The translations under genes and the position numbers were made by a program. This document shows, in pieces, positions 1,199 through 20,674 of a stretch of DNA of 21,393 nt (positions within the stretch are counted from its first letter, which is position 1; each line of letters opens with the position of its first letter). The notes beneath the pieces are model-generated. The model had not been told where the DNA came from and did no database searches. It saw only the letters and a list, made by a program, of their open reading frames with translations. This stretch comes from a virus: positions 1 to 21,393 of the IMG/VR virus record IMGVR_UViG_3300008999_000045; one strand, given 5' to 3'.

Positions 1199-4171
1199 TT
1201 AAAATCTAGATGAAGATTCAATTACTTTTAATCTATTCTCAGTTTCTCTTAACGCTTCCACAGGCAGAACTACATTTGTGTTTCTACCAACAGCAGCCCC
1301 GATAGCGTTGTAGTCTATGAATCCTGAGTTACCGAAGTTTGGAGACGAGAATCCTACACCCCCGCCTGCTTGATTCATTGCGCTTAAAGCTCCTCCAAAC
1401 ATAGCGGTACTCCTTTTGTTTATAACAGCTTCGCCTCCTTCTAGCTCGACCACTCTACCACCAACTCCAAACTTTTCTCCACCTTTTGAGTGAGAGTTTC
1501 CGTGAACCATACCACCGTTCGCAAACTTCTGAGATTTTATTGAGTCTACATTAGCAGCATATCTACCTAAAGCTAATGCAGCCATAATTGTGTATTGAGC
1601 ACCACCCGCAGCACCAAACGTAAATGCGTTCCCAGGATTTGCTGCCGCTTGAACAGCGATATTAGCAAGCTCTTGAGCTAGACTTATTCTAGCTAACTTT
1701 AATTCGTTTTCTTTTCTTAGCTTAAAAGACTCTTTTTCTATAGCGTCTTTTCTTTTCTTAGCAACTCTATCGTTTATAAGTCCGTCTTGATTAGCCCTTT
1801 CATTGGCTTCGGTTTTCTTGTCTAAGATTCTTTGTTGATTAGCAAGCTCTACCTCCGCAGCTTTCTTTGCAGCATCAGCTATTAAGTTTATACCCTCTAT
1901 CGCAAACTTGACTTTTTGGTCACGCTTACTTGCTTCAGTTTGTTCATCAAGTTTAGCTAATTGTCCCTCAGCATTTGCTTTTTTAGCTTTAAGTTTTGCT
2001 AATGTTTCATCACTCTTTCTTTCTTCAGCATTTATTAACTCATCAAAATAAGCTATGTCTATTTTTAACATATCCCTTCTAAACTCTGCGTTAGTAAGGT
2101 TGTTTTCTTTCGCTTCTCTTTTAGCTTCAAATATCTTTGTGTCAGCAACCTCTGTAGCTAATTGAGTTTGCATATCGTCATACTCTTTACTATTAGAGCG
2201 CTCTACTTGCAGCCTTTTTTTCTTTATAGATAACTCAGCCTTAGCAATATTATCTTTTATTCTAGCTAACTCAGTCTCATCATCAATATTATTTAAGTAA
2301 TACTTTTGCTCTAAACCTCTAAATGAATCTAGTTTTGCTTCTAGCTTCTCTAATTCTATTACGTTAGCGTATTCTCCATCTTCAAACCCTTGAGCGTCTA
2401 AATCTTGAAGTTCTTTTTGTAAAGCTAATCTTTGATTCCGTTCAGCATTATTGTAAGCTATTCTATCATTTGCTTTTTTATCATCAATTGTTTTTTTATC
2501 AGCAGCAGCTTTTGTATCTGCAGCAAGAATTTTCTCGTTGTAATCTCTGTAAGCGGTTATAAATGACTGATAGTTAAGGTGATGCATGCCCGCTAAAGCA
2601 GCATTAAATTCTCCCTTTTTATTTCTAGTCTTATCTATGTTAGTATTAAAAGTGTCTACTTTTTGTTTTTGTTCATCAGTAAGCCTTGTAGTATTGCCAG
2701 GGTTTCCAAATCCATACATAATTGAATTTAGCTCTTGTATCTCAGGAGCCATTTTTTTAATCTCTGCTCTAGTATCTTTTAAAGCTTGCGCAGCATTTCT
2801 CTTCAACATCTTTTTGTAAGTTGAAGTTTGACTAGTAAACGGGTTTACTTTTTCGAAAAAACTTAACTGTTCGCTAGCTAGTATTTCCATACTCTTAGTC
2901 ATTTCACTAACTAATTCTCCAAAGAATGAAGAGTCTCCTATAGCTATTTTAAAGTTTTTCCAAGAATTACCAAGTGTGTTTAACTTAGTATCCATAGAAT
3001 CCATTAATTCATTTTCAGCTCTAGTTAAATTACTAGCCCTTAATGTTTCATCATTTAGTTTTCCTAGAATTTCATGATATTGGTCTGCGTTATCCCCTGC
3101 AACAGAGAATACAGCGGTTAGACCACGAATATTACCAAACATAGCCTCTATGTCAGCAGGGTTATCTTTAAACGCTTTATTTAGCCTTTTCATTGTCTCA
3201 GTAAATCCTACCGCCTTAAGCTGAGCAGAACCCATAGGTATTCCTAACTTTATAAATAAATCTCTAGCTTGAGCTGAAGGTTTTTGCATTTGAGCTAAAG
3301 CAGCACGAATAGCTGTAACCGATTTAGCGGCATCCAAACCTGTTCTAGTGGTAACAGAAAGAGTAGCTCCTAATTCCTCAAGGCTAACTCCTGAAGATGC
3401 AGCTAAAGGTAAAACAACCCCTAAAGACTTAGATAATTCTTCTACAGTTGTTACACCATATTTTTGAGTTGTAAATAGTATTTCAGCAACTTCCCTTGCT
3501 TTATCTGCAGATTCTCCGTAAGCGTTTAATGCTGTAGTAATACCTAGTGTTGCAGACTTCAAGTCAGTAACACCTGCCATTGCTAAAGTAGACGCCTCTC
3601 CTAAAAACTCGATAGCCTCTCCTCCCTTAATCCCTGCGGAAACAGAGTTGAACATAGCTTTGTTTATATCTGCTAAACCAAAACCAAACTTCCTACCTAT
3701 ATCTAAAGCTCCTTGATATAACTTTGGTTGGAGTAAAGAACCCTCATCTCCATTTAATAAGGTTGCAACATTTTTAACTCCTTTTTCAAAAGCGGCAAAA
3801 TCCTTAACTCCTGTCATTAAAAATTGAGACAACTTTCTAAAGGCTTGAATAGCAATTCCAACTGAAGCTCCCATCTTAAGCATACCTGCCGCTGAAGACT
3901 TCCCTGCTTTTGCATTTCTTCTCTTGGCTGTAGTGTTTCTGTCTAAGCTTTTTATATGTGAATCAACTGCTCTTTTTTGCTTTTTCTGAAGTAAAGTTAG
4001 TTTTGCTATTTGACTAGCTTGAGCTGAGTTTGCAGCCTTTTGACCTTTTACTTTTTTATTTAAAGCTGATAAAGTTTTGTTTGTAAGCCTTAAGTCTTTT
4101 TGATATTCTTTCAGTTTATTTAACCCAACAATGTCTAGGTCAATCTGATACTTATCTTTTTTAGTTGCCAT
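1199..4171 (-). CDS. tail tape measure protein (TP901 family-like)
   Basis: A 990-residue protein that would set tail length and travel with the DNA on ejection. Residues 1-85 are Lys-rich and coiled-coil-like. Residues about 120-380 match the phage tail tape measure TP901-type core, with repeated small-residue helices (for example LGEASTLAMAGVTDLKSAT near 190-208 and GVSLEELGATLSVTTRTGLD near 261-280). Residues about 560-830 are a long charged helical region. The C-terminus (about 905-960) is Gly-rich with the FANGGMVHGNSHSKGG and VVELEGGEAVINKRS type motifs common at the end of tape measures. Using roughly 1.5 angstrom per residue, the tail would be near 150 nm, which fits a long-tailed siphovirus (inference). 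It lies directly after the tail hub gene, whereas in many siphoviruses the tape measure precedes the distal tail and hub genes. Confidence 0.93.
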   Translation of the reverse strand: MATKKDKYQIDLDIVGLNKLKEYQKDLRLTNKTLSALNKKVKGQKAANSAQASQIAKLTLLQKKQKRAVDSHIKSLDRNTTAKRRNAKAGKSSAAGMLKMGASVGIAIQAFRKLSQFLMTGVKDFAAFEKGVKNVATLLNGDEGSLLQPKLYQGALDIGRKFGFGLADINKAMFNSVSAGIKGGEAIEFLGEASTLAMAGVTDLKSATLGITTALNAYGESADKAREVAEILFTTQKYGVTTVEELSKSLGVVLPLAASSGVSLEELGATLSVTTRTGLDAAKSVTAIRAALAQMQKPSAQARDLFIKLGIPMGSAQLKAVGFTETMKRLNKAFKDNPADIEAMFGNIRGLTAVFSVAGDNADQYHEILGKLNDETLRASNLTRAENELMDSMDTKLNTLGNSWKNFKIAIGDSSFFGELVSEMTKSMEILASEQLSFFEKVNPFTSQTSTYKKMLKRNAAQALKDTRAEIKKMAPEIQELNSIMYGFGNPGNTTRLTDEQKQKVDTFNTNIDKTRNKKGEFNAALAGMHHLNYQSFITAYRDYNEKILAADTKAAADKKTIDDKKANDRIAYNNAERNQRLALQKELQDLDAQGFEDGEYANVIELEKLEAKLDSFRGLEQKYYLNNIDDETELARIKDNIAKAELSIKKKRLQVERSNSKEYDDMQTQLATEVADTKIFEAKREAKENNLTNAEFRRDMLKIDIAYFDELINAEERKSDETLAKLKAKKANAEGQLAKLDEQTEASKRDQKVKFAIEGINLIADAAKKAAEVELANQQRILDKKTEANERANQDGLINDRVAKKRKDAIEKESFKLRKENELKLARISLAQELANIAVQAAANPGNAFTFGAAGGAQYTIMAALALGRYAANVDSIKSQKFANGGMVHGNSHSKGGEKFGVGGRVVELEGGEAVINKRSTAMFGGALSAMNQAGGGVGFSSPNFGNSGFIDYNAIGAAVGRNTNVVLPVEALRETENRLKVIESSSRF

Positions 4172-4182
4172 TACTATATATT

Positions 4183-7100
4183 CTATTCAGTTATTAATAA
4201 TAATTCTACTTCTGTTGCTTCTCCCGAGAAATTGTAATCTTTTACTTTGCTTATAATATACTTATTATTGTTTATATAAACTAATCTTCTAAAGTCTAAA
4301 TTAAAAATATCAAAAGGAGTTAAGTGAACTTTTGCGGTTATCAACTTATCTGCCTTTTTAAGATTGTTAATTAACTTGCTATGATAAAGCTCAGTTAAAC
4401 TAGAACCATTAATAGCGCTAGAAAAAGAGAGGTTTGGATAGCCCGAAGAGGTGTCTGAAAAAGAAGCGTACTCTCTATAAGTACTAGCGTTATTAGCGTC
4501 TCCTAAAAACCCTCCTTCATAAGCTTGAATGCCAAATTGAATGAACTTTTTTTCAAGTACATACCTAATAAAACGATTGCTTTCTAACTCTACTAAATCG
4601 CCTTCATAAGCTAGCTTATATCCGTGAGAATTATTCGCTTCAGGTTTTTGTTCAACTATATCAGGAGTTAGTGTAGATGATGAGTTCCCCCAAACTTTAG
4701 GTAACCTTATAGATGAATAAGTTATTTCATTCCAATCTGACATGCTTCTAACAATAAACTTGTCGAAATCCATTTCTAAGAAAGAGAATATATTCAACCC
4801 TATTACTGTAGGTTCTGATAAGTTATCAGGATTTATTTGAGCGTGGAAATCGCCAAGACCTACCGTTGTTCCTCCAACTGTATAAGAGCTTGCGTCTTCC
4901 CCATCTTCATTCATTTTAAGTATTATGTTAGAATTACTTACATTGTTTTGCTTAACGCTTGTTATTGTAGACTTCTCAGTCCAATCTAATGCTTCTGTAG
5001 TTTCAGAATCTAAATCAAAAAAGCTTGAATAAGGTTCTGCTGTAACAACATTACTGTATGGATTAAAAGACCATATTAAATTAAACATCTTAGTTACATC
5101 ACTAATAAACTCTAAGCAAGTAGCGTCAGGTAAAACCTCTCTATACGAAACTCTAGGTGTAGCCTCTGAGTTGTAAACAGCCATAGACTTCCCTTTTAAC
5201 GGAGAAATACTCTTACTTAACTTCATTGAAATATCAAACTCATGAACTACATAAGTAACAGAACCTAAAGTTGGGAAACTTGTATGGTCAGGGGAGGTAG
5301 CGTTAGTTTTAGAGCCTGTAGCAGTCATTACAATGTATTCTTGACCTGCTTTTAAGTATTGGACTCTATTTAATTCTAATCTTGTATTATTAAGCCTAAG
5401 CGTCTCAGTTGCCATACCTTCTGCATCCGTGACATCATTCATTATTGACTTTTCTATTAATATAGACGCATCATCTTCTAAGTCAAATAACTCTCCTCCA
5501 AACTTATTGTTATTCGCTCCATAAATAGAGTCATCAGCATACTGAGCAGGCATCAACATAGTTGTGTAAATAAACTCGCTAGGTCTATGAAGGTAATGTG
5601 AAAAGCTAGCATTTCCTGGACTCCTCCACTTAAAAGATACTTTTGATTGAGTTGAAATCTCGTAGTAACCACTTTTCTTAACAGTTATTCTAGACCTTTC
5701 AGGATTGTAATCAAGTAGAGGTTGCCCTGTGCCACTTGCGTATCCGTGAACTGAGGAAGCAAAAGGTCTAGAGCCAAAAGTTGAAGAGGAATTATACAAG
5801 TTATCTTGATTATCAGGATGATATAATCCATTTATAGCTGTCACGTTAGAGCTGTAAGAATGAGTAGACCCTACATCGCTAAGTATATTACTGAACCTTA
5901 TAGGACACCAATCAACGACATAAGCGTAAACACCACTATTAGACAGTATTGATGATTTTAAATAACACCTAAGAGAGATAGCTATTGAGGAGCTACCTTC
6001 TCCACTATCTAATATAGCGTAAGAACTAAAAGTTCCAAGTTCGGTTGTTGCTTCAAATCTAGAGTTTAAAATATCATCCTCGTGTATCCTCATCTCAGGA
6101 GCTATAGACACAAGTTTAGATGTTAAGTCTGTAAATTCAGTAGAGAAATCTGAACTCCACTCATCTTGATTATTAAAGAAGTTACTATTAAGAGTATATC
6201 CCTCTGATTCAAAGATTTTTACTAGTAAGTTTTTAATTCGAAAAGCAGCTTTTACATTATCAAATCCAACTGAAGCTTCATTTTCCACATCTCCATTAGT
6301 GTCTTGCATTAAATCCCATAAACCATTATCTACTAAAGGAAATACTATTTCATCATCAAGAGATGTAAACTCTTGAGAGTCTATAATATCATTACTACTA
6401 ACTAAGTAAGTAGCTGATTCTATATCCCTTAGATTCTTGTTTGAAATAGGATTTGACCAAGAACTATTTCCTGTTTTTAAATTAAAAACTAATTCGTCAA
6501 AACCATTAATGCCTAGCGAAGATTCAGTTAAGAATAACTGACCTTTAAGTATATCGAGTCCTTTAGACTTTACTATACAAGGGAAGCCACTTGAATCAAT
6601 CAAACTTTTAGTAGCGTTTATTTCGTTTGTAAAAAGCAATGCTTTTTTATTGTTATTAGTTGCGGGAACTCTAATTGTTTTAGAATAACTACCGCTACTT
6701 TTACTAACCTCATTAAAATCTTTGACAGAAAAATTTAAAGAAGTATTAAAATCATCACTTAAATCTAGGCTTGTAAATGTGAAAGTTGTAGTTGGAGTAG
6801 AAACATTACAAGTAATTTTGACTGAGTTTATAATAGTATCTACAATAGTGCTGTTACCCTTTATCTTTAAAGTTAATAACTGAACATTATCTCCCAAGCT
6901 CCAAACTTTATCTTCACAATCTATAGTTGTTATTCCTGTAGAATTAACGGTAGTAACTCTATCCGCTGTGCTAGAGTAGTTTTCTATAACCTCTATAGTA
7001 TTTCCTGTGTTAATTTTTTTAACATCAATTATAACCTTAAAAATATAAGATATGTTTGCATCTTCTATATTTGAAAACATAAGAAAGTCAAACACACTAG

Positions 7101-9558
7101 AATTAATAACGTGTTCCCTTTGAAGTATTATCTCAGGGTTAGCTGCTGCTGCATTGCCTGTTAAGTGGTCGTAACTTCTGACTCTAAAAGCTGCTTCGTA
7201 AGGAGCAACTAAAAGTCCTGTATTGATAGTTGTTTCATCTCCGTATTTTTCTAAACCTACTACAGTCCCAACATTAGCCCCTATATTTAAAAGAACGTAA
7301 GTTATAACAGCGGAAGTTGTTCCTAATGCTTGATTGCTATTTTCTTGAACTGTAGCTAGTCTTATTCTTAACTTACCGCCTGTAAGCGTTATAGTATGAG
7401 AAGTAAGCCCTGCTGAACTTATTTCTGAAGCCTCAGTTCCGTCTCCCGAGTCTAAAAACAATGAATCTCCTGAGTGGCTTGCTAAGTGAACCTGAATTGT
7501 TATAGGAGTGGTTGTGTCTGTAATTTCTTGATTTAATACAATGTAAGGAGGTTCAACACCTGCAGAAGTAGCGTTATAGTAAAATTGTATTTCATTATTA
7601 CCTGAAGTTCCTTGGCTTATGTATGCGTTTTCAGCAGTTTTAAATTCAATAGAAGATACGAGTACTACTGAGTTTAATAAAGTAGTTCCCGTTATTGAAT
7701 CGGCAAATATGTGCATATCGGTAGAGCCTATTATAAAGCTTCCGCTTATTAAGTTTTCAGCATTTGTTTGATTTCTCTCTGCGTCTACAGCAAAATCATT
7801 TTTAGGATTTACTCTAAAAGACTCTTCTTCGTTAAATTTAGAATTACCGTTAGTGTCGAAGAAATTTATTGTTTGCTGTTTAGATAGAACAGGCTCTTGA
7901 AGATTGTCTGAAGTGCTTTCTATTTCATCTGCAACAACTTGAGAGCCATTGTAATAGTGGTATTTATTAATAAATGTATCGTTAGAAAAGTCAGTTGAAG
8001 TTATGATAATATCTTTGTTTGAGCGTACAGCTCCTTCTCCAAGATATTGAACAAAAGATGGAGAACTCAGAAGATTATGATTCCCATTAAGCTTTATTAT
8101 AGGAGCTGTATCACTATAAAGTCCTGCTGCCGCTCTTAGCTTTATGTATCCTAATCTAAGTATATCTTCCTCTTGTGAGCCTTGTATTTTTATTATTATT
8201 TTAAAAGGAGTAATTGTTTCTTGTAGAGGGGTCGTAAAAAATCCGTGTCTAGCACCCGTAAGGCTACTTAACCCTGCATTAGTAGTTACTAATTCATTAT
8301 ACTGTAACTCCTCGTTAGTTACACGTATAATAAATGGGCAATTAGACTCAAGTATATATACCCCTAAATTAAATTCACTACCTGCTCTAAGGTTTAATCT
8401 AGTCTCAGCTTGAGTGCTGTAAAGCCCTTCTGAACCATTACCTCTTAATACAACTTGAGCTTGACCCGAAGTCGTGCTTGACGCTAAGCTAGTATAGTCA
8501 ATATTATTAGGATATGGATTCCAAAAAGTGTGACTATTAACTGCAGGCTCAAAAGCTACAGATACAGCGTTTGAATTTACGGAGTCTGTGTGACCCCCAC
8601 TTAAAGACGAGGTATTGTTTAGTCTTACTCCATTGTCAGCAGGCGCACTTCCTTGAAAGCCTATAACAAATGATACCCTTTTACCTATGTCTGATGTAGA
8701 AAATATATTTTCAAGAGTAAGAGCTATAGGTTGTCCAACTCTAGTGTGACCACCATAACTTAAAGATTGAGGTATTTCAGGAATCTTATGACTAACAAAA
8801 AAATCTTGATTATACCCTTCCCATAAGTGCATATGACCTTGATTAAAAGAGTATTCGCTTGAAAATGCTATCAAGCTAGCGTCTTGAGACTTAAGCCTAA
8901 TCAAATCCCCATCAGTAACATTTTTAACGCTACTAATCTGTTCTGCAACTGCAGATTGATTTGTAGTCCTATAAGAACCAAATTCATACATTAAATTAGT
9001 GTTCTGAGTATAAGGTAAAAGAGTTACATCTCCACCTCCGCTAATATTATTTACAGCAGCAGGTATCCCTGAAAGATTATCAGTAGTACCTATTCTTTCA
9101 GCGTGAGTATTGCCGCCACCTAAGTGGCTCATAAGGTTTAAACTAGGAATGATAGCTCCATTATCCCCGTTGTAATAAGAATACCCATTAGTTGTGTCAT
9201 CTTCAGATAACTGATTACCTGCAGCGTTTAATCCTGAGTTTGCTATAGAAGCATTGTAAACAGTCCAACCAACAGGCTCGTAAAAAGAATGATGAGCTGA
9301 AGGGTATAAACTATCTGTATCGTTATTAAATCCTTCATCAAACCCATTAGCAAATATATCAAGAAGAGCATTCGCTTCAAAATCAGGGATAGGAGAATAT
9401 CCTTGTACAGACCAAAATGAAGGAACTTTTTGATTTGAATAATCGTTGTATAAAAAAAAGTTAGAGTTCGTTAGAGTAATCTCTTCAAATATAGAGAATA
9501 CACCACTTTCAGGAGCTAAAGGGTTCTGAACTATTATTTCAAATATATTGTTATCCAT
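4183..9558 (-). CDS. giant tail hub / tip protein with large N-terminal adhesin-like region
   Basis: At 1791 residues this is the largest protein in the window and probably forms the tail tip that contacts the host. Residues about 1-920 are rich in Ser, Thr, Asn and Gly with short beta-strand patterns, as in receptor-binding or adhesin regions, with no family I can name. At about 925-1010 there is a segment containing GSYSKTIRVPATNNNK, resembling a segment I recall from Bacteroidetes phage tail-tip proteins. Around 1480-1515, FISDVTKMFNLIWSFNPYSN followed by an acidic EPYSSFFDLD resembles the hub domain of those proteins. The last 150 residues contain RRLVYINNNKYIISKVKDY, a beta-rich ending often seen in hubs. 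It sits between a distal-tail-like gene and the tape measure gene. Tail tip identity is well supported by context and size; the domain assignment is from memory, not a search. Confidence 0.75.
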   Translation of the reverse strand: MDNNIFEIIVQNPLAPESGVFSIFEEITLTNSNFFLYNDYSNQKVPSFWSVQGYSPIPDFEANALLDIFANGFDEGFNNDTDSLYPSAHHSFYEPVGWTVYNASIANSGLNAAGNQLSEDDTTNGYSYYNGDNGAIIPSLNLMSHLGGGNTHAERIGTTDNLSGIPAAVNNISGGGDVTLLPYTQNTNLMYEFGSYRTTNQSAVAEQISSVKNVTDGDLIRLKSQDASLIAFSSEYSFNQGHMHLWEGYNQDFFVSHKIPEIPQSLSYGGHTRVGQPIALTLENIFSTSDIGKRVSFVIGFQGSAPADNGVRLNNTSSLSGGHTDSVNSNAVSVAFEPAVNSHTFWNPYPNNIDYTSLASSTTSGQAQVVLRGNGSEGLYSTQAETRLNLRAGSEFNLGVYILESNCPFIIRVTNEELQYNELVTTNAGLSSLTGARHGFFTTPLQETITPFKIIIKIQGSQEEDILRLGYIKLRAAAGLYSDTAPIIKLNGNHNLLSSPSFVQYLGEGAVRSNKDIIITSTDFSNDTFINKYHYYNGSQVVADEIESTSDNLQEPVLSKQQTINFFDTNGNSKFNEEESFRVNPKNDFAVDAERNQTNAENLISGSFIIGSTDMHIFADSITGTTLLNSVVLVSSIEFKTAENAYISQGTSGNNEIQFYYNATSAGVEPPYIVLNQEITDTTTPITIQVHLASHSGDSLFLDSGDGTEASEISSAGLTSHTITLTGGKLRIRLATVQENSNQALGTTSAVITYVLLNIGANVGTVVGLEKYGDETTINTGLLVAPYEAAFRVRSYDHLTGNAAAANPEIILQREHVINSSVFDFLMFSNIEDANISYIFKVIIDVKKINTGNTIEVIENYSSTADRVTTVNSTGITTIDCEDKVWSLGDNVQLLTLKIKGNSTIVDTIINSVKITCNVSTPTTTFTFTSLDLSDDFNTSLNFSVKDFNEVSKSSGSYSKTIRVPATNNNKKALLFTNEINATKSLIDSSGFPCIVKSKGLDILKGQLFLTESSLGINGFDELVFNLKTGNSSWSNPISNKNLRDIESATYLVSSNDIIDSQEFTSLDDEIVFPLVDNGLWDLMQDTNGDVENEASVGFDNVKAAFRIKNLLVKIFESEGYTLNSNFFNNQDEWSSDFSTEFTDLTSKLVSIAPEMRIHEDDILNSRFEATTELGTFSSYAILDSGEGSSSIAISLRCYLKSSILSNSGVYAYVVDWCPIRFSNILSDVGSTHSYSSNVTAINGLYHPDNQDNLYNSSSTFGSRPFASSVHGYASGTGQPLLDYNPERSRITVKKSGYYEISTQSKVSFKWRSPGNASFSHYLHRPSEFIYTTMLMPAQYADDSIYGANNNKFGGELFDLEDDASILIEKSIMNDVTDAEGMATETLRLNNTRLELNRVQYLKAGQEYIVMTATGSKTNATSPDHTSFPTLGSVTYVVHEFDISMKLSKSISPLKGKSMAVYNSEATPRVSYREVLPDATCLEFISDVTKMFNLIWSFNPYSNVVTAEPYSSFFDLDSETTEALDWTEKSTITSVKQNNVSNSNIILKMNEDGEDASSYTVGGTTVGLGDFHAQINPDNLSEPTVIGLNIFSFLEMDFDKFIVRSMSDWNEITYSSIRLPKVWGNSSSTLTPDIVEQKPEANNSHGYKLAYEGDLVELESNRFIRYVLEKKFIQFGIQAYEGGFLGDANNASTYREYASFSDTSSGYPNLSFSSAINGSSLTELYHSKLINNLKKADKLITAKVHLTPFDIFNLDFRRLVYINNNKYIISKVKDYNFSGEATEVELLLITE

Positions 9559-11430: not shown

Positions 11431-12651
11431 CTATAAATTATTAAGAGCAAGCATTACACTAAACACGTCTTGTTGTGATAAAGCTTCTCTATATAGAGCT
11501 ACATTGCTAACCTCTGCAATTAATCCTGAGTTGTTATCAGTTCCGTCTTGCCTCGCTCCAAGCCTAAAAGTCTTTGAGCCCGAAGATATATACTCCTGCT
11601 CTATTTCTCGGGATTGTATAACATAAAGTTCGTTTTGCCAATAGACTCTAATCTTACCTTCAGATGATTCGTGAACTAGGGCTATAGTTTTAGGATTACC
11701 TAAAGTTCCGTAAGGCTTAACATTTGACGTATTAACAATATAAGAACCTACACTTGTTCTAGGATTGTTACCTAAACCCATGTCTTGTACTATATCTAAA
11801 TACATAGTGCCTTCAGACTGTCCAAAGTTTTGAATTTTTAGAATTAAGTTATCCAAGTCATTATTCCCTTTTATATTAAATATAGTTGAATATCCCGAGG
11901 GGCTAGGTTCTTCAGGAGTTTGCAATGTTACGAATACTGTAAAGTCTGCGTTATTCAAGGTAAAAAAACTATTTGATAAGGACTCCGAAGAGCTAGTATC
12001 AGTAGGCGCAGAAAAATCTATAGTATTTCTTGTTGTAAGAGTTGGTACTTGGTCTGTTTCTTCACTTGCTAAAGCAAAAGTTCCGCCTGTATTATTAATT
12101 AAAGGCAACCAAGACATATAACCATCCGTTGTTGTAACTCCAAATACTGAAGTGTGAAACGACCATAAGTTATTTGTATAAGGTAGAGTAGATAAAGCAG
12201 GCGTTGTTCCTGCGAAAGCTAGTTTAGATGGGGCTAATAAAGTAAAATTAACCTTAATTCCAATACTCATATCAGAGCCAAATCTAGACACTCTTTCTAT
12301 ATCAAAAGACTCTCCATCTATAACGTACTGCCCGTTTCTTTGAGCAGCTAAAAATCCGATAAAATTGTTGAACAAAGATAAAGACTCGTCATACAATGAA
12401 GCAGGGTTATAATCAACTTCTCGCAATGATTTTTTTATTAAAATAAAACAAGTTAAGTCGTACTCCTCTCTAGCCCTATTTATGTCCGATATTTTTGAAG
12501 AAGGTGGCTCTACAACGCACAAAGGATATGAAATGTTTTTTAATCCATTTATCTCACTTTCTGTAATTAAGTGAAACGATTTTGAAGTCGAAGCTAAATA
12601 CCAAGATGAAGCAAAGTCAGTAGCTAGGTTTTGTATATTCTTAAAACTCAT
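11431..12651 (-). CDS. putative tail terminator fused to a LamG/concanavalin-like lectin domain
   Basis: A 406-residue two-part protein. Residues about 1-145 look like a tail terminator/gpU-like domain: an amphipathic start, a beta strand (YDLTCFILIKKS, about 64-75), a helix with LFNNFIGFLAAQRNGQY (93-109), then DIERVSRFGSDMSIGIKVNF, a closing strand. Residues about 165-403 read as a LamG/concanavalin-like beta sandwich: NADFTVFVTLQ (234-244), FNIKGN, a strand with IALVHESSEGKIRVYWQNEL, FRLGAR, and the typical ending LIAEVSNVALYREALSQQDV. Lectin domains of this kind bind glycans and are usually on virion surfaces. A terminator normally caps the tail at the head end, so a lectin there would decorate the neck. 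The fusion is clear from the reading frame; the identity of the N-terminal part is inference. Confidence 0.65.
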   Translation of the reverse strand: MSFKNIQNLATDFASSWYLASTSKSFHLITESEINGLKNISYPLCVVEPPSSKISDINRAREEYDLTCFILIKKSLREVDYNPASLYDESLSLFNNFIGFLAAQRNGQYVIDGESFDIERVSRFGSDMSIGIKVNFTLLAPSKLAFAGTTPALSTLPYTNNLWSFHTSVFGVTTTDGYMSWLPLINNTGGTFALASEETDQVPTLTTRNTIDFSAPTDTSSSESLSNSFFTLNNADFTVFVTLQTPEEPSPSGYSTIFNIKGNNDLDNLILKIQNFGQSEGTMYLDIVQDMGLGNNPRTSVGSYIVNTSNVKPYGTLGNPKTIALVHESSEGKIRVYWQNELYVIQSREIEQEYISSGSKTFRLGARQDGTDNNSGLIAEVSNVALYREALSQQDVFSVMLALNNL

Positions 12652-12654
12652 AAT

Positions 12655-12921
12655 TTATTTTTTATATCTAATATCATTTATTTCAGAGTCGTAATTAGCC
12701 TTGAGCGCAAGATACGATAAATATCTGAATACTTCCCCCGTATTTGTATATAAAACACTATTAATCGGAGTTTTATCAGGTTGGTTAAATATACCACACT
12801 CTGCCAATTCGTATAGCGTTTTAATCCAACCAAGCCCAGCAAAAGCCTTTTCGTAAGCGGCAATTTCTTTAGCTGAGCCGCTGCTTCGTATTGAAGGTAT
12901 GCTAGACTGTATACTTGACAC
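12655..12921 (-). CDS. -1 frame extension of the tail assembly chaperone (or separate GTG-start ORF)
   Basis: An 88-residue reading frame overlapping the 3' end of the preceding gene in the -1 frame. It has a possible GTG start at 12921, but the frame is also open upstream through the T9 run (FFFVQEVSSIQ), so translation by frameshifting from the chaperone is the more likely route. Codon use (GAA, AAA, AAT, GAT, TTA) matches the neighbouring genes much better than that of the overlapping zero frame. From residue 16 of this ORF the sequence is helical (AKEIAAYEKAFAGLGWIKTL) and then contains TNTGEVFRYLSYLALKANYD, similar in style to the C-terminal half of long chaperone products in Bacteroidetes phages as I recall them. 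The stop is followed 3 nt later by the terminator-lectin gene. Confidence 0.6.
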   Translation of the reverse strand: MSSIQSSIPSIRSSGSAKEIAAYEKAFAGLGWIKTLYELAECGIFNQPDKTPINSVLYTNTGEVFRYLSYLALKANYDSEINDIRYKK

Positions 12922-13490
12922 TTCTTGGACAAAAAAAAAGCGAAGTCAAAGCCTACTGACATAGGTAACTCTTCAAATTTTTCAGCTAACAAATCTCTTT
13001 CCTCAGTATCCCACTCTTCTCCGTAATCCACTATGTGTGCGGCTTGATGAGCTAAATATATTACAGAGTTTTTATCTGTATACTTAGAAACCATCTCCGC
13101 CTGCAAGGATTCTATATACTGCCCAAACTTAGTATTAATTGGCAATAATTCAGGTAGATTATATTTCCTGCCTTGAAACTCAAAAGACTTTAATTTTTTA
13201 GGCTTATACTTTTCTCTTAAGAAAAATAACTTATCAACGTAACTCAAAGCTACAGCGTAATCTAAAGCGGAAGTATCTTCTTCGCTTAAGCCTGTAAAAC
13301 TTTTGACTATTTCGAAGTTTAACTCTAATTCTTTGGTTAATATCCTCCTACTATAATCCTCATCAGACTCTTCTTCTATAGGCTCTGTTGCTTCTTGAAA
13401 ATCAACCAACGCTTTATTGTAAGCTGAAAATTGTCGTAAGTTTACGTCATCCCAAGATTCAGGTAATTTCAAGCCATTTAATTCCGTCAT
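12678..13490 (-). CDS. putative tail assembly chaperone, zero-frame product
   Basis: A 270-residue protein encoded right after the large terminase. Residues 1-186 look like natural coding sequence: LKLPESWDDVNLRQF at 7-21 and FTGLSEED at 65-72 are patterns I recall from Bacteroidetes phage proteins thought to be tail assembly chaperones, which coat the tape measure during tail assembly. At residues 184-187 the mRNA carries nine U. A -1 slip there gives a 278-residue product ending in the frame at 12655-12921. The zero-frame tail (187-270) uses codons such as CTG, CGG and CCG that the surrounding genes avoid, so the -1 frame is the better protein over most of the overlap, although FFLSKKCQVYSLAYLQYEAA also looks natural. 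This is the classic lambda G/GT layout, but the gene is far from the tape measure gene. Chaperone role is an inference from pattern and frameshift. Confidence 0.6.
   Translation of the reverse strand: MTELNGLKLPESWDDVNLRQFSAYNKALVDFQEATEPIEEESDEDYSRRILTKELELNFEIVKSFTGLSEEDTSALDYAVALSYVDKLFFLREKYKPKKLKSFEFQGRKYNLPELLPINTKFGQYIESLQAEMVSKYTDKNSVIYLAHQAAHIVDYGEEWDTEERDLLAEKFEELPMSVGFDFAFFLSKKCQVYSLAYLQYEAAAQLKKLPLTKRLLLGLVGLKRYTNWQSVVYLTNLIKLRLIVFYIQIRGKYSDIYRILRSRLITTLK
12930..12941 (-). promoter_or_regulatory. candidate -1 ribosomal frameshift site (T9 slippery run)
   Basis: On the minus strand the sequence reads GCT TTT TTT TTG in the zero frame. This contains the heptamer T TTT TTT, which satisfies X XXY YYZ for a -1 slip and leads into TTT GTC CAA in the -1 frame. 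Both frames then stay open for about 80 codons, which is rare by chance in AT-rich DNA. A weak bulged hairpin can be drawn about six bases downstream (GAAG/CTTC stacked on GTAT/ATAC), which could act as a stimulator. An assembly homopolymer error is the main alternative. Confidence 0.55.
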
Positions 13491-13497
13491 AATTTGT

Positions 13498-14943
13498 TTA
13501 TCTAAATGCTGTTATTCGTTTTCCTTTACTATATAAATCTAATGCTATCTGCAAGCAGTCTACCATATCATCGTGCCTTGCGTTAGGGAACTGTGCGCAT
13601 TGGCTTACAAAATTATCCACCCACATACCATCCAACAGGTTGACTCTACCTCCCTCAATTATATTTACTACGTCAGAAATTCTAGCCACTTTATCTTTAG
13701 AAGGGGACTTAGATTCAATAACGGTAAGTCTAGTGTTTCGCCTTAAAGTTTGGACTATTGATTTCCCACTAGCTTTAGGTTCTACGTATATCTTTGAAGT
13801 TCTTGAGTACCCATTTCTTAAGCAAAAAGTTTGTATATACTTAACTAATTCAGGGAACTCTAAATACTTTTCCTCTACACATCTGATGTAATATTCGTTT
13901 TCGTATAAAGCGTAAGCTAATAAAGCCGAAGGGTCGTTATTTTCTTTTGAAGTGTAAGCGGGGTCTACAACAAAATTCCAATTCATAAAGATTTCATCAC
14001 TAAAGCTTTTGTGTATATTAAACCACTCTTTCTTTATTATCCCTCCGTCAGCAGGCGCAGGTTGTTGTTGAAGTTGTCCTGCGTATTCGTAGCTTCCTAA
14101 TTGGTATTTATAGTCTTGCAATATTTTTCTAGAGAATCTAGTATCCCAAAACAAGTCGTTTTTATAGAATTTAAGGAGTCCTTTAGGACTCAAAATTTTT
14201 GAAGACTCCGCAGGTATGCAAATATGTTTGTAACCATCAGGGTTGTTACGCAAAAGGTATCCACTTAAATCATCTTCATGTAGCCTTTGCATAATTATTA
14301 TCCTAACGCCCGTTCTAGGGTTGTCTAAACAACTATAAAGAGTTGTGTTATACCAATCATTAGCGTGAGTCCTTTCAGCCTGTGAGGCAGCTTGTTTTGG
14401 GCTTATAGGGTCATCCACTATTATAATAGATGCTCCTGCCCCTGTTACAGTCCCTCCAACCGAAGTTGCTCTACGATTTCCTGTGTGGTCATTAACGTAA
14501 TGATGTTTAGTGTTCTGGTCAGGCTTTATAACAAATAAATCCCCCCAATTATCTTGAAACCACTTACTTTGTATAACATCTCTAGACTTTGCACTATGCT
14601 CAACACTTAATGAAGCAGAATAGGATGCTGTTATGAATCTAAGCTTTGGGTCTCTTATCCAACACCAAACAGGAAATAATATCGTACACATAAGAGATTT
14701 AGATGCACGAAAAGGGACATTTATGATTAAGTCTTCTGTTTTAGGTTTATCGGCTATAATTCTTTCAGCCTCCTTCTGTAGAAGTTGGCAAACATATTGA
14801 TGATGCCAATTAATATCTAACTGAACAGCAGGCTCAACAACTTTAAATGCCTCCTTAAAAAATTCAAAGTAAGACATTTCACAGAGCTTTCTCCTTAGAG
14901 CCTCTGCCATTTCTTTAGTTGTAGCTTCGTTCAAGTGATTCAT
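13498..14943 (-). CDS. terL: terminase large subunit (packaging ATPase-nuclease)
   Basis: A 481-residue motor protein that translocates and cuts phage DNA at the portal. The ATPase half shows a terminase-style Walker A, NVPFRASKS (75-83), in which the usual Gly before Lys is Ser, a Walker B IIIVDDP (173-179), and the coupling motif IIIMQRLHEDDL (215-225). The nuclease half shows VVDPAYT (325-331, Asp327), YVEPKASG (386-393, Glu388) and ARHDDMVD (455-462, Asp458/459/462), the RNase H-like acidic set. Length is normal for the family. It starts 7 nt after the stop of the upstream unknown gene, is preceded by an A-rich leader without Shine-Dalgarno sequence, and is followed 7 nt later by the chaperone gene. 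All motor and nuclease motifs appear intact. Confidence 0.95.
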   Translation of the reverse strand: MNHLNEATTKEMAEALRRKLCEMSYFEFFKEAFKVVEPAVQLDINWHHQYVCQLLQKEAERIIADKPKTEDLIINVPFRASKSLMCTILFPVWCWIRDPKLRFITASYSASLSVEHSAKSRDVIQSKWFQDNWGDLFVIKPDQNTKHHYVNDHTGNRRATSVGGTVTGAGASIIIVDDPISPKQAASQAERTHANDWYNTTLYSCLDNPRTGVRIIIMQRLHEDDLSGYLLRNNPDGYKHICIPAESSKILSPKGLLKFYKNDLFWDTRFSRKILQDYKYQLGSYEYAGQLQQQPAPADGGIIKKEWFNIHKSFSDEIFMNWNFVVDPAYTSKENNDPSALLAYALYENEYYIRCVEEKYLEFPELVKYIQTFCLRNGYSRTSKIYVEPKASGKSIVQTLRRNTRLTVIESKSPSKDKVARISDVVNIIEGGRVNLLDGMWVDNFVSQCAQFPNARHDDMVDCLQIALDLYSKGKRITAFR

Positions 14944-19573: not shown

Positions 19574-20674
19574 ATGAATTACAAAAACCTAAAAGATAGT
19601 TTGAGGGAAGTATTAAGTACCCAAGCTACAAGTTACGAATATACTGACACTATGAATTTTTTGATAGAAAAATCTATCGAGTTCGGCGCAGATGATTTCG
19701 AAGTAGATGAACACGACAACATATATATTACTAAGGGTAAAGCTAAGGCATATCCTTGTGTTGTTTCTCATACGGATACAGTTCACGATATTTATAAAGA
19801 ATATAAAGTTTATCAAGTCAAGGGCAATTTTGTTGCGTTCGATTCAGATTCTATGCAACAAGTTGGAACAGGAGGCGATGACAAAGTTGGTATGTGGGTA
19901 TGTTTAGAAATGCTACGTAAATTTGATAATATAAAAATATGCTTCTTCGCTCAAGAAGAAATTGGTTGCATAGGAAGTTCTAAAGCTAAAGCAGAATTTT
20001 TCGATGACGTTGGTTATGCTTTCGAATGCGACAGAAAAGGTAACGGAGATTTTGTTCAAGAATCTTCGGGAGTTAAAATGTTTGGCGATGTTTTCAAAGA
20101 AGCCATAAAATCAACATTAAATACTTACGGATATAAAATTACTACGGGAGGTTTGACTGATGTTCACGAAATTTCTCAAATTGCAAATATTGCTTGTGCT
20201 AACATGAGTTGTGGATATTATAAACCACACTCAAAACAAGAGTACGTAAATATTGAAGACGCAATAAATACGTGCAAAATGGTTGGGGCTTTAATTACTA
20301 AGCTAGGAGAAGTTAGATACGACCACGAAGCAGAAGATTCTTATTCTTCTTTCGGTTGGGGTAATTATAGTTCTTATGGTGCTTATGGTTATTCAAAACC
20401 AAAATATAAACCCACAAAGAAAATATCTAATAAATCAAAACTATTTTCAGGTTGCGATATGTGTGGGGCTATTTCTACCGATGGTTGCGATTTTTGTGAA
20501 ATAGAAAGTTCATCGGACTTAAAATCGGAAAACGAACCTGTAAACGCAGTATTTTCGGGAATGAGTTACGCTTGTAGTTGTGGAGGAAATCAAAAATCTT
20601 ACAAAGATTCAGAGGGAGAGTTTTTGCATTGTGCTACTTGTGGAATGTACAAACCTTCAGTTGTTCCATTTTAA
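19574..20674 (+). CDS. M20/M42-like zinc metallopeptidase fused to C-terminal zinc-binding knuckles
   Basis: A 366-residue protein. Residues 1-250 carry the co-catalytic metal site of the M20/M28/M42 clan: VVSHTDTVHD (63-72, His66 and Asp68), GTGGDDKVG (98-106, Asp102/103), FFAQEEIGCIGS (124-135, Glu128/129), FECDRKGNG (150-158, Asp153) and YYKPHSKQEY (215-224, His219). All expected ligands are present, so an active aminopeptidase or peptidase T-type enzyme is likely. Residues about 255-285 are a Tyr/Gly/Ser linker. Residues 290-360 hold two Cys pairs each side: CDMCG...CDFCE (294, 297, 305, 308) and CSCGG...CATCG (334, 336, 353, 356), which look like zinc ribbons. The target is unknown. It might act on host or phage proteins; the zinc module may bind the substrate or nucleic acid. 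The family is firm, the fusion and role are inference. Confidence 0.85.
   Translation: MNYKNLKDSLREVLSTQATSYEYTDTMNFLIEKSIEFGADDFEVDEHDNIYITKGKAKAYPCVVSHTDTVHDIYKEYKVYQVKGNFVAFDSDSMQQVGTGGDDKVGMWVCLEMLRKFDNIKICFFAQEEIGCIGSSKAKAEFFDDVGYAFECDRKGNGDFVQESSGVKMFGDVFKEAIKSTLNTYGYKITTGGLTDVHEISQIANIACANMSCGYYKPHSKQEYVNIEDAINTCKMVGALITKLGEVRYDHEAEDSYSSFGWGNYSSYGAYGYSKPKYKPTKKISNKSKLFSGCDMCGAISTDGCDFCEIESSSDLKSENEPVNAVFSGMSYACSCGGNQKSYKDSEGEFLHCATCGMYKPSVVPF

Follow-up and report, generated by a model that had tools for sequence, protein, structure and literature searches.

A run of nine T and two open reading frames behind the large terminase gene of a phage: a candidate slippage gene with two alternative ends

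The gene that follows the large terminase gene in the phage sequence studied here contains a run of nine T, beyond which two reading frames remain open for a long distance. This raises the question of how the gene is read and whether one or both of its ends are used. The window, that is, the whole stretch of DNA that was analysed, comprises 21,393 nucleotides and corresponds to IMG/VR record IMGVR_UViG_3300008999_000045. An earlier note, made from these letters without database searches, had regarded the locus as a tail assembly chaperone gene with a -1 frameshift site and a long overlap. The reading that now fits best, with a confidence somewhat above even, is a gene with programmed slippage that would give a 270-aa zero-frame product and a 278-aa -1 product with 184 shared residues, most likely a pair of tail assembly chaperones. 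One gene very probably makes two proteins that share their first half but differ in their ends. In the phage of the window and in its relatives, a single stretch of DNA encodes both of these ends, which is unusual.

Layout of the gene and its neighbours

The gene and its immediate neighbours lie on the minus strand. The gene for the large terminase subunit (terL, 13498-14943; PF17289; phrog_38, 3e-102) is directly upstream, and the zero-frame ATG at 13490 stands just after its stop. From this ATG, 184 codons (12939-13490) form the N-terminal part that is common to both products. The T9 run occupies 12931-12939 and includes the heptamer T TTT TTT at 12939-12933 in the register of the zero frame; the earlier note had placed the link between the first part and the -1 frame at this heptamer, and its coordinates were right. 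The zero-frame ORF (12678-13490, 270 aa) consists of the 184 codons, FF and a further 84 codons, as the note had counted, and ends with TAA at 12680-12678. The -1 end (12655-12939) comprises 94 codons, FFF included, followed by a stop at 12657-12655, and the whole -1 fusion is 278 aa long. The two frames overlap over 12678-12930, where the synonymous divergence of the -1 frame is reduced. Just 3' of the run, a short stretch on the minus strand, TACAGTCTAGCATACCT (12895-12911), encodes YSLAY and QSSIP in the two frames and is identical or nearly so at the DNA level in 8 of the 11 genomes of clade 1, the clade of the window. Dual coding or a signal at the nucleotide level may be the cause of this conservation, and both fit.

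The next gene downstream (11431-12651, minus strand) begins with an ATG 3 nt past the -1 stop and has at most a sub-threshold laminin-G match. The tape measure protein gene (1199-4171, minus strand; PF10145, 1e-29) lies 8.5 kb downstream of the slippage gene, confirming that the latter adjoins the large terminase gene, away from the tape measure gene. The upstream neighbour of the tape measure gene encodes a 1791-aa protein, and a 93-aa gene followed by a head protease gene lies on the other side. This 1791-aa tail-region gene (4183-9558, minus strand) matches nothing in Pfam or PHROG; inspection by eye shows a segment of the 'SKTI..P.T' type that it has in common with the 800-aa gene of clade 3. 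On the plus strand, opposite to the structural genes, 19574-20674 encodes a phage-borne protein with M42/M20 peptidase matches above the Pfam cut-offs. The T9 run is the sole run of at least nine A/T in the window, where shuffles predict 5.3.

The T9 run and the two frames in related genomes

Relatives were collected by IMG/VR scans with the zero-frame protein, with the terminase and with alignments of both. Clade 1 comprises 11 distinct genomes (the window, L006-L012, L024, L025 and L026), a count that excludes L005, which is near-identical to the window, and L023, which is a repeat of L026. Their proteins are 37-93% identical to the zero-frame protein of the window. An exact T9 followed by G, with both frames open, is present in 11/11 genomes, and T TTT TTT is in register throughout. 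Past the run, the zero frame is open for 73-96 codons and the -1 frame for 93-101 codons. These findings suggest programmed slippage at the T run and support the long overlap, both of which the earlier note had proposed. The zero-frame stop is mostly located about 20-30 nt ahead of the -1 stop and the next ATG. A conserved start codon for the -1 part was looked for and none was found; an independent start of this part was therefore rejected. Elsewhere in about 125 kb of clade-1 sequence, runs of nine A/T occur only at L007 4029, L010 908 and L009 909.

A DNA-pattern scan for the site, in which T9 was required, yielded at least two further clades with a T9 gene after terL. Clade 2 (L079 and L095) was found through the T run itself, and its zero-frame end is 31 codons long. 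Clade 3, which includes L078 and L090 and at first had zero-frame ends of 64 codons, grew to 22 loci after queries with the N-terminal part, in which the run was not used; the same queries gave no new member of clade 2. T9 is present in 20 of these 22 loci and T10 in two (L188 and L189), with the frames kept, so the conservation that the earlier note had suggested looking for in related phages extends beyond clade 1. In L188 and L189, T10 arises by a TTG to TTT substitution, and both frames are still split; the single continuous frame with 8 or 10 T that the note had named as counter-evidence does not appear there. The zero-frame ends of clade 3 reach 63-75 codons from the run, counted where the contig is long enough, and those of clades 2 and 3 stop well before the next gene. 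The clade-1 profile aligns with clade 2 along the entire fusion, across the T run (E 1.5e-27), and its match to clade 3, although collinear, is weak (E 6e-4, probability 28%). According to this profile comparison, clades 1 and 2 share a conserved -1 fusion, and conservation of the -1-frame protein is a stronger argument for this frame than the codon use considered earlier. Because the -1 end is conserved between clades and the zero-frame end is variable, the long zero-frame end is probably lineage-specific, an overprint of clade 1.

Two cultured phages carry a similar gene. The structural model of the zero-frame product matches 32 viral models at E<=1e-3 in Foldseek, including I6R9M9 of Nonlabens phage P12024S, which was taken to be P12024S_38 because the length (175 aa) and the position agree. 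P12024S_38 follows terL, as the slippage gene does in clades 2 and 3, and has T9 at 23578-23586 (L192, JQ823122). The -1 frame is open there for more than 80 codons, and the zero-frame end has about 26 codons. P12024S_38 and P12024S_39 (L192 23136-23830, JQ823122) are annotated as separate hypothetical proteins and appear to be one slippage gene. P12024L, which was reached by similarity to P12024S, has the same T9 in the gene after terL. In both phages, the run is in a different codon phase from that of the window and its length is again nine; the heptamer T TTT TTT also falls inside the P12024S run. Profile comparison found no significant sequence similarity of the P12024 genes to the window family, so what connects them is the fold, the gene order and the T run. 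When the window protein or the fusions of clades 2 and 3 were compared with named phages by tblastn, nothing convincing emerged. In other phages of flavobacteria and of Bacteroides that were found by way of terL (P2559Y, P2559S, phi17:1, MA9V-3, tant8-1, Harreka_1, RAP44, BS-TP2 and phiST), the annotation gives other genes after terL, namely portal or small unnamed genes. Among 396 genomes of the phylum to which the MAG behind L032 belongs, a set without a positive control, no match was found at E<=0.001.

Selection on the zero frame and the mode of slippage

The openness of the zero frame is firm and is not random. Synonymous permutation of the -1 frame keeps the zero frame as open as observed with P of 0-0.046 per clade-1 genome, and codon-usage resampling of the -1 frame with P of 0-0.011; these per-genome values are not independent because the genomes are related. 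An offset-2 (-1) shadow frame of more than 48 codons occurs just 11 times in 27,300 ORF codons of the clade-1 genomes, which equals the number of these loci, and judging by their lengths these frames probably lie at the slippage gene. Taken by itself, openness is weakly unusual in clade 3 (P 0.025-0.039) and not unusual in clade 2 (P 0.11-0.27).

The observed to expected ratio of synonymous divergence of the -1 frame is 0.62 in the overlap (five pairs) versus 0.96 for TerL and 1.13 for the shared part; once stop-sensitive codons are excluded, it is 0.64. The depletion is significant, but two close pairs carry most of it, with 5/90 and 7/82 in the overlap versus 36/164 and 41/141 for the shared part; these pairs are also low relative to TerL and the next gene. 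Three observations count against a constraint on the zero frame. The pair L007/L008 has no such depletion, the closest pair differs in the overlap at five places that each alter the zero frame while being silent in the -1 frame, and depletion in clade 3 extends beyond the zero-frame stop. Since recoding rarely leaves such openness and synonymous change is reduced in two of the five pairs, the zero frame is probably selected, although the constraint on its residues is moderate. The use of both products, which the earlier note had suggested, is an inference from sequence, and the zero-frame end may have a role as a protein. AlphaFold2 gives pLDDT values mostly of 80-92 over the shared part, lower at about residues 111-140, and models the zero-frame end at low confidence. 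A function deduced from the basic character of the zero-frame end was rejected, as this charge arises passively from the -1 frame.

The way in which the second frame is reached can be narrowed by the run itself. RNA polymerase would most likely add one U (or drop two) at T9, and the resulting mixture of mRNAs would be translated in both frames; slippage of the ribosome by -1 on T TTT TTT may contribute or even be the main route. A run of nine A/T whose length is conserved among homologues is considered very likely to serve purposeful transcriptional slippage (Baranov et al. 2005, PMC1088944), and the run described here has at least nine T and keeps this length among its homologues. It has nine or ten T in all members and never seven or eight. 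In clade 1, the -1 frame has TTT as its third Phe codon without exception, although elsewhere both TTT and TTC occur in 20 of 24 columns with invariant Phe. A conserved RNA structure or stimulator was searched for and none was conserved, so an RNA stimulator was rejected. The run length, the different phase in P12024S and the lack of a conserved RNA structure favour transcriptional slippage over the ribosomal mechanism that the earlier note had assumed. This is a preference, short of proof, because dual coding could also keep the eighth and ninth T and thus partly explain their conservation.

A more far-reaching reading, rather less likely than not, is that in a group of phage tail-assembly genes transcriptional slippage at T9 would give two proteins of near-equal length with alternative C-terminal ends, both selected, in the same 250 bp. 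If true, this would mean alternative ends instead of the usual short and long pair. It is also possible, though short of an even chance, that ribosomes shift by -1 on T TTT TTT, as in the lambda G/GT type, and that the extra run length is incidental or kept by dual coding. This is consistent with the heptamer being in register in all clade-1 genomes and present inside the P12024S run, and -1 ribosomal frameshifting is the known mode of tail chaperone genes (PMC5009743). However, T TTT TTT needs seven T's and the run never falls to seven or eight, it remains nine in P12024S despite the different phase, and a conserved downstream structure is lacking.

A somewhat less likely alternative holds that what counts is just the shared part together with the -1 fusion, and that the zero frame stays open to let ribosomes that have not shifted cover the mRNA up to the next gene (anti-polarity), the peptide itself being irrelevant. 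The position of the zero-frame stop about 20-30 nt before the -1 stop and the next ATG in most of clade 1 agrees with this, as do the passive basic charge and low-confidence fold of the zero-frame end. Yet depletion remains without stop-sensitive codons, and the zero-frame ends of other clades (31 or 63-76 codons) stop well short of the next gene. That the zero frame is open by chance, owing to the amino-acid make-up of the -1 frame and AT-rich codon use, is strongly disfavoured. The same 27,300 codons do contain offset-1 shadow frames as long as 94 and 106 codons, but the low recoding P values recur at the same place in all 11 genomes. An extremely improbable explanation is a sequencing or assembly error, a pseudogene or two separate genes. 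Homopolymer runs are error-prone, but the same run and split recur in many separate contigs, in two other clades and in the cultured P12024S and P12024L, which excludes the assembly error that the earlier note had feared, and two genes would leave the -1 part without a conserved start codon.

Possible function and comparison with known systems

The slippage gene had no hit in Pfam or PHROG, and no match to the PDB, by sequence or by fold, was convincing. Foldseek matched the zero-frame model weakly to an annotated tail assembly chaperone (E 0.0074, prob 0.98), and the -1 tail alone as a fold query gave nothing. A tail assembly chaperone is the best functional guess and is plausible because of the recoding layout, the tail module downstream and the fold match to an annotated chaperone. 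The unusual place after terL, the lack of sequence homology and the distance from the tape measure gene count against it. From the sequence, two overlapping frames, a conserved slippery site and a shared N-terminal part can be read, as in G/GT-type genes, but the gene is not just upstream of the tape measure gene. A chaperone pair of this type would in addition bind tape measure and tail tube while the tail is assembled, be missing from virions and be made in a fixed ratio. The lambda scheme invoked by the earlier note thus fits in its recoding layout, while the chaperone identity stays at the level of plausibility. The 37-kb relative behind L007 has the same tape-measure surroundings as the window. 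There is no obvious chaperone gene beside the tape measure gene, where a 93-94-aa gene is still a possible candidate. L199 and L201 (37 kb relative) contain, in this order, terL, tail genes, tape measure, head protease and portal, with the tail module before the head genes and the portal late.

Polymerase slippage in a phage family, if true, would be a second way to set the ratio of two products, next to the ribosomal slippage by which the known frameshifted tail chaperones are read, and it would account for the separate annotation of the two parts of the gene. With the cultured P12024S and P12024L, slippage can already be tested, although the zero-frame end of these two phages is short. How a second frame is gained and retained can be studied well on the end of clade 1, which is long and read twice.

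In 2004, Xu, Hendrix and Duda (cited in PMC5009743) reportedly described tail assembly chaperone genes with a -1 frameshift, lambda G/GT among them. Like lambda G/GT, the slippage gene is one gene in a tail module, with a shared N-terminal part and a -1 fusion that carries an extra C-terminal domain. In contrast, it is flanked by terL on one side and the tail genes on the other, with the tape measure gene 8.5 kb away, its slippery site is T9, and the zero-frame product of its clade has an end of its own (73-96 codons), almost as long as the -1 end. Bacterial transcriptional slippage at A9 or T9, known from IS elements, Shigella mxiE and Thermus dnaX (PMC1088944), resembles the window in the nine-long run that is kept and in the alternative C-terminal ends, whereas the gene of the window belongs to a phage tail module and has both frames open far past the run. 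Overprinted viral genes are similar in that a long end was seemingly gained in the second frame of an older coding region. They differ in that the extra end of the window would be expressed through slippage on a shared protein, without a start of its own. The closest counterparts in cultured phages are P12024S_38/_39 and P12024L_40/_41 of the Nonlabens phages (Inhavirus), which share with the window the place after terL, the fold match, T9 and a -1 frame open past the zero-frame stop, and differ from it in their short zero-frame end (about 26 codons) and codon phase.
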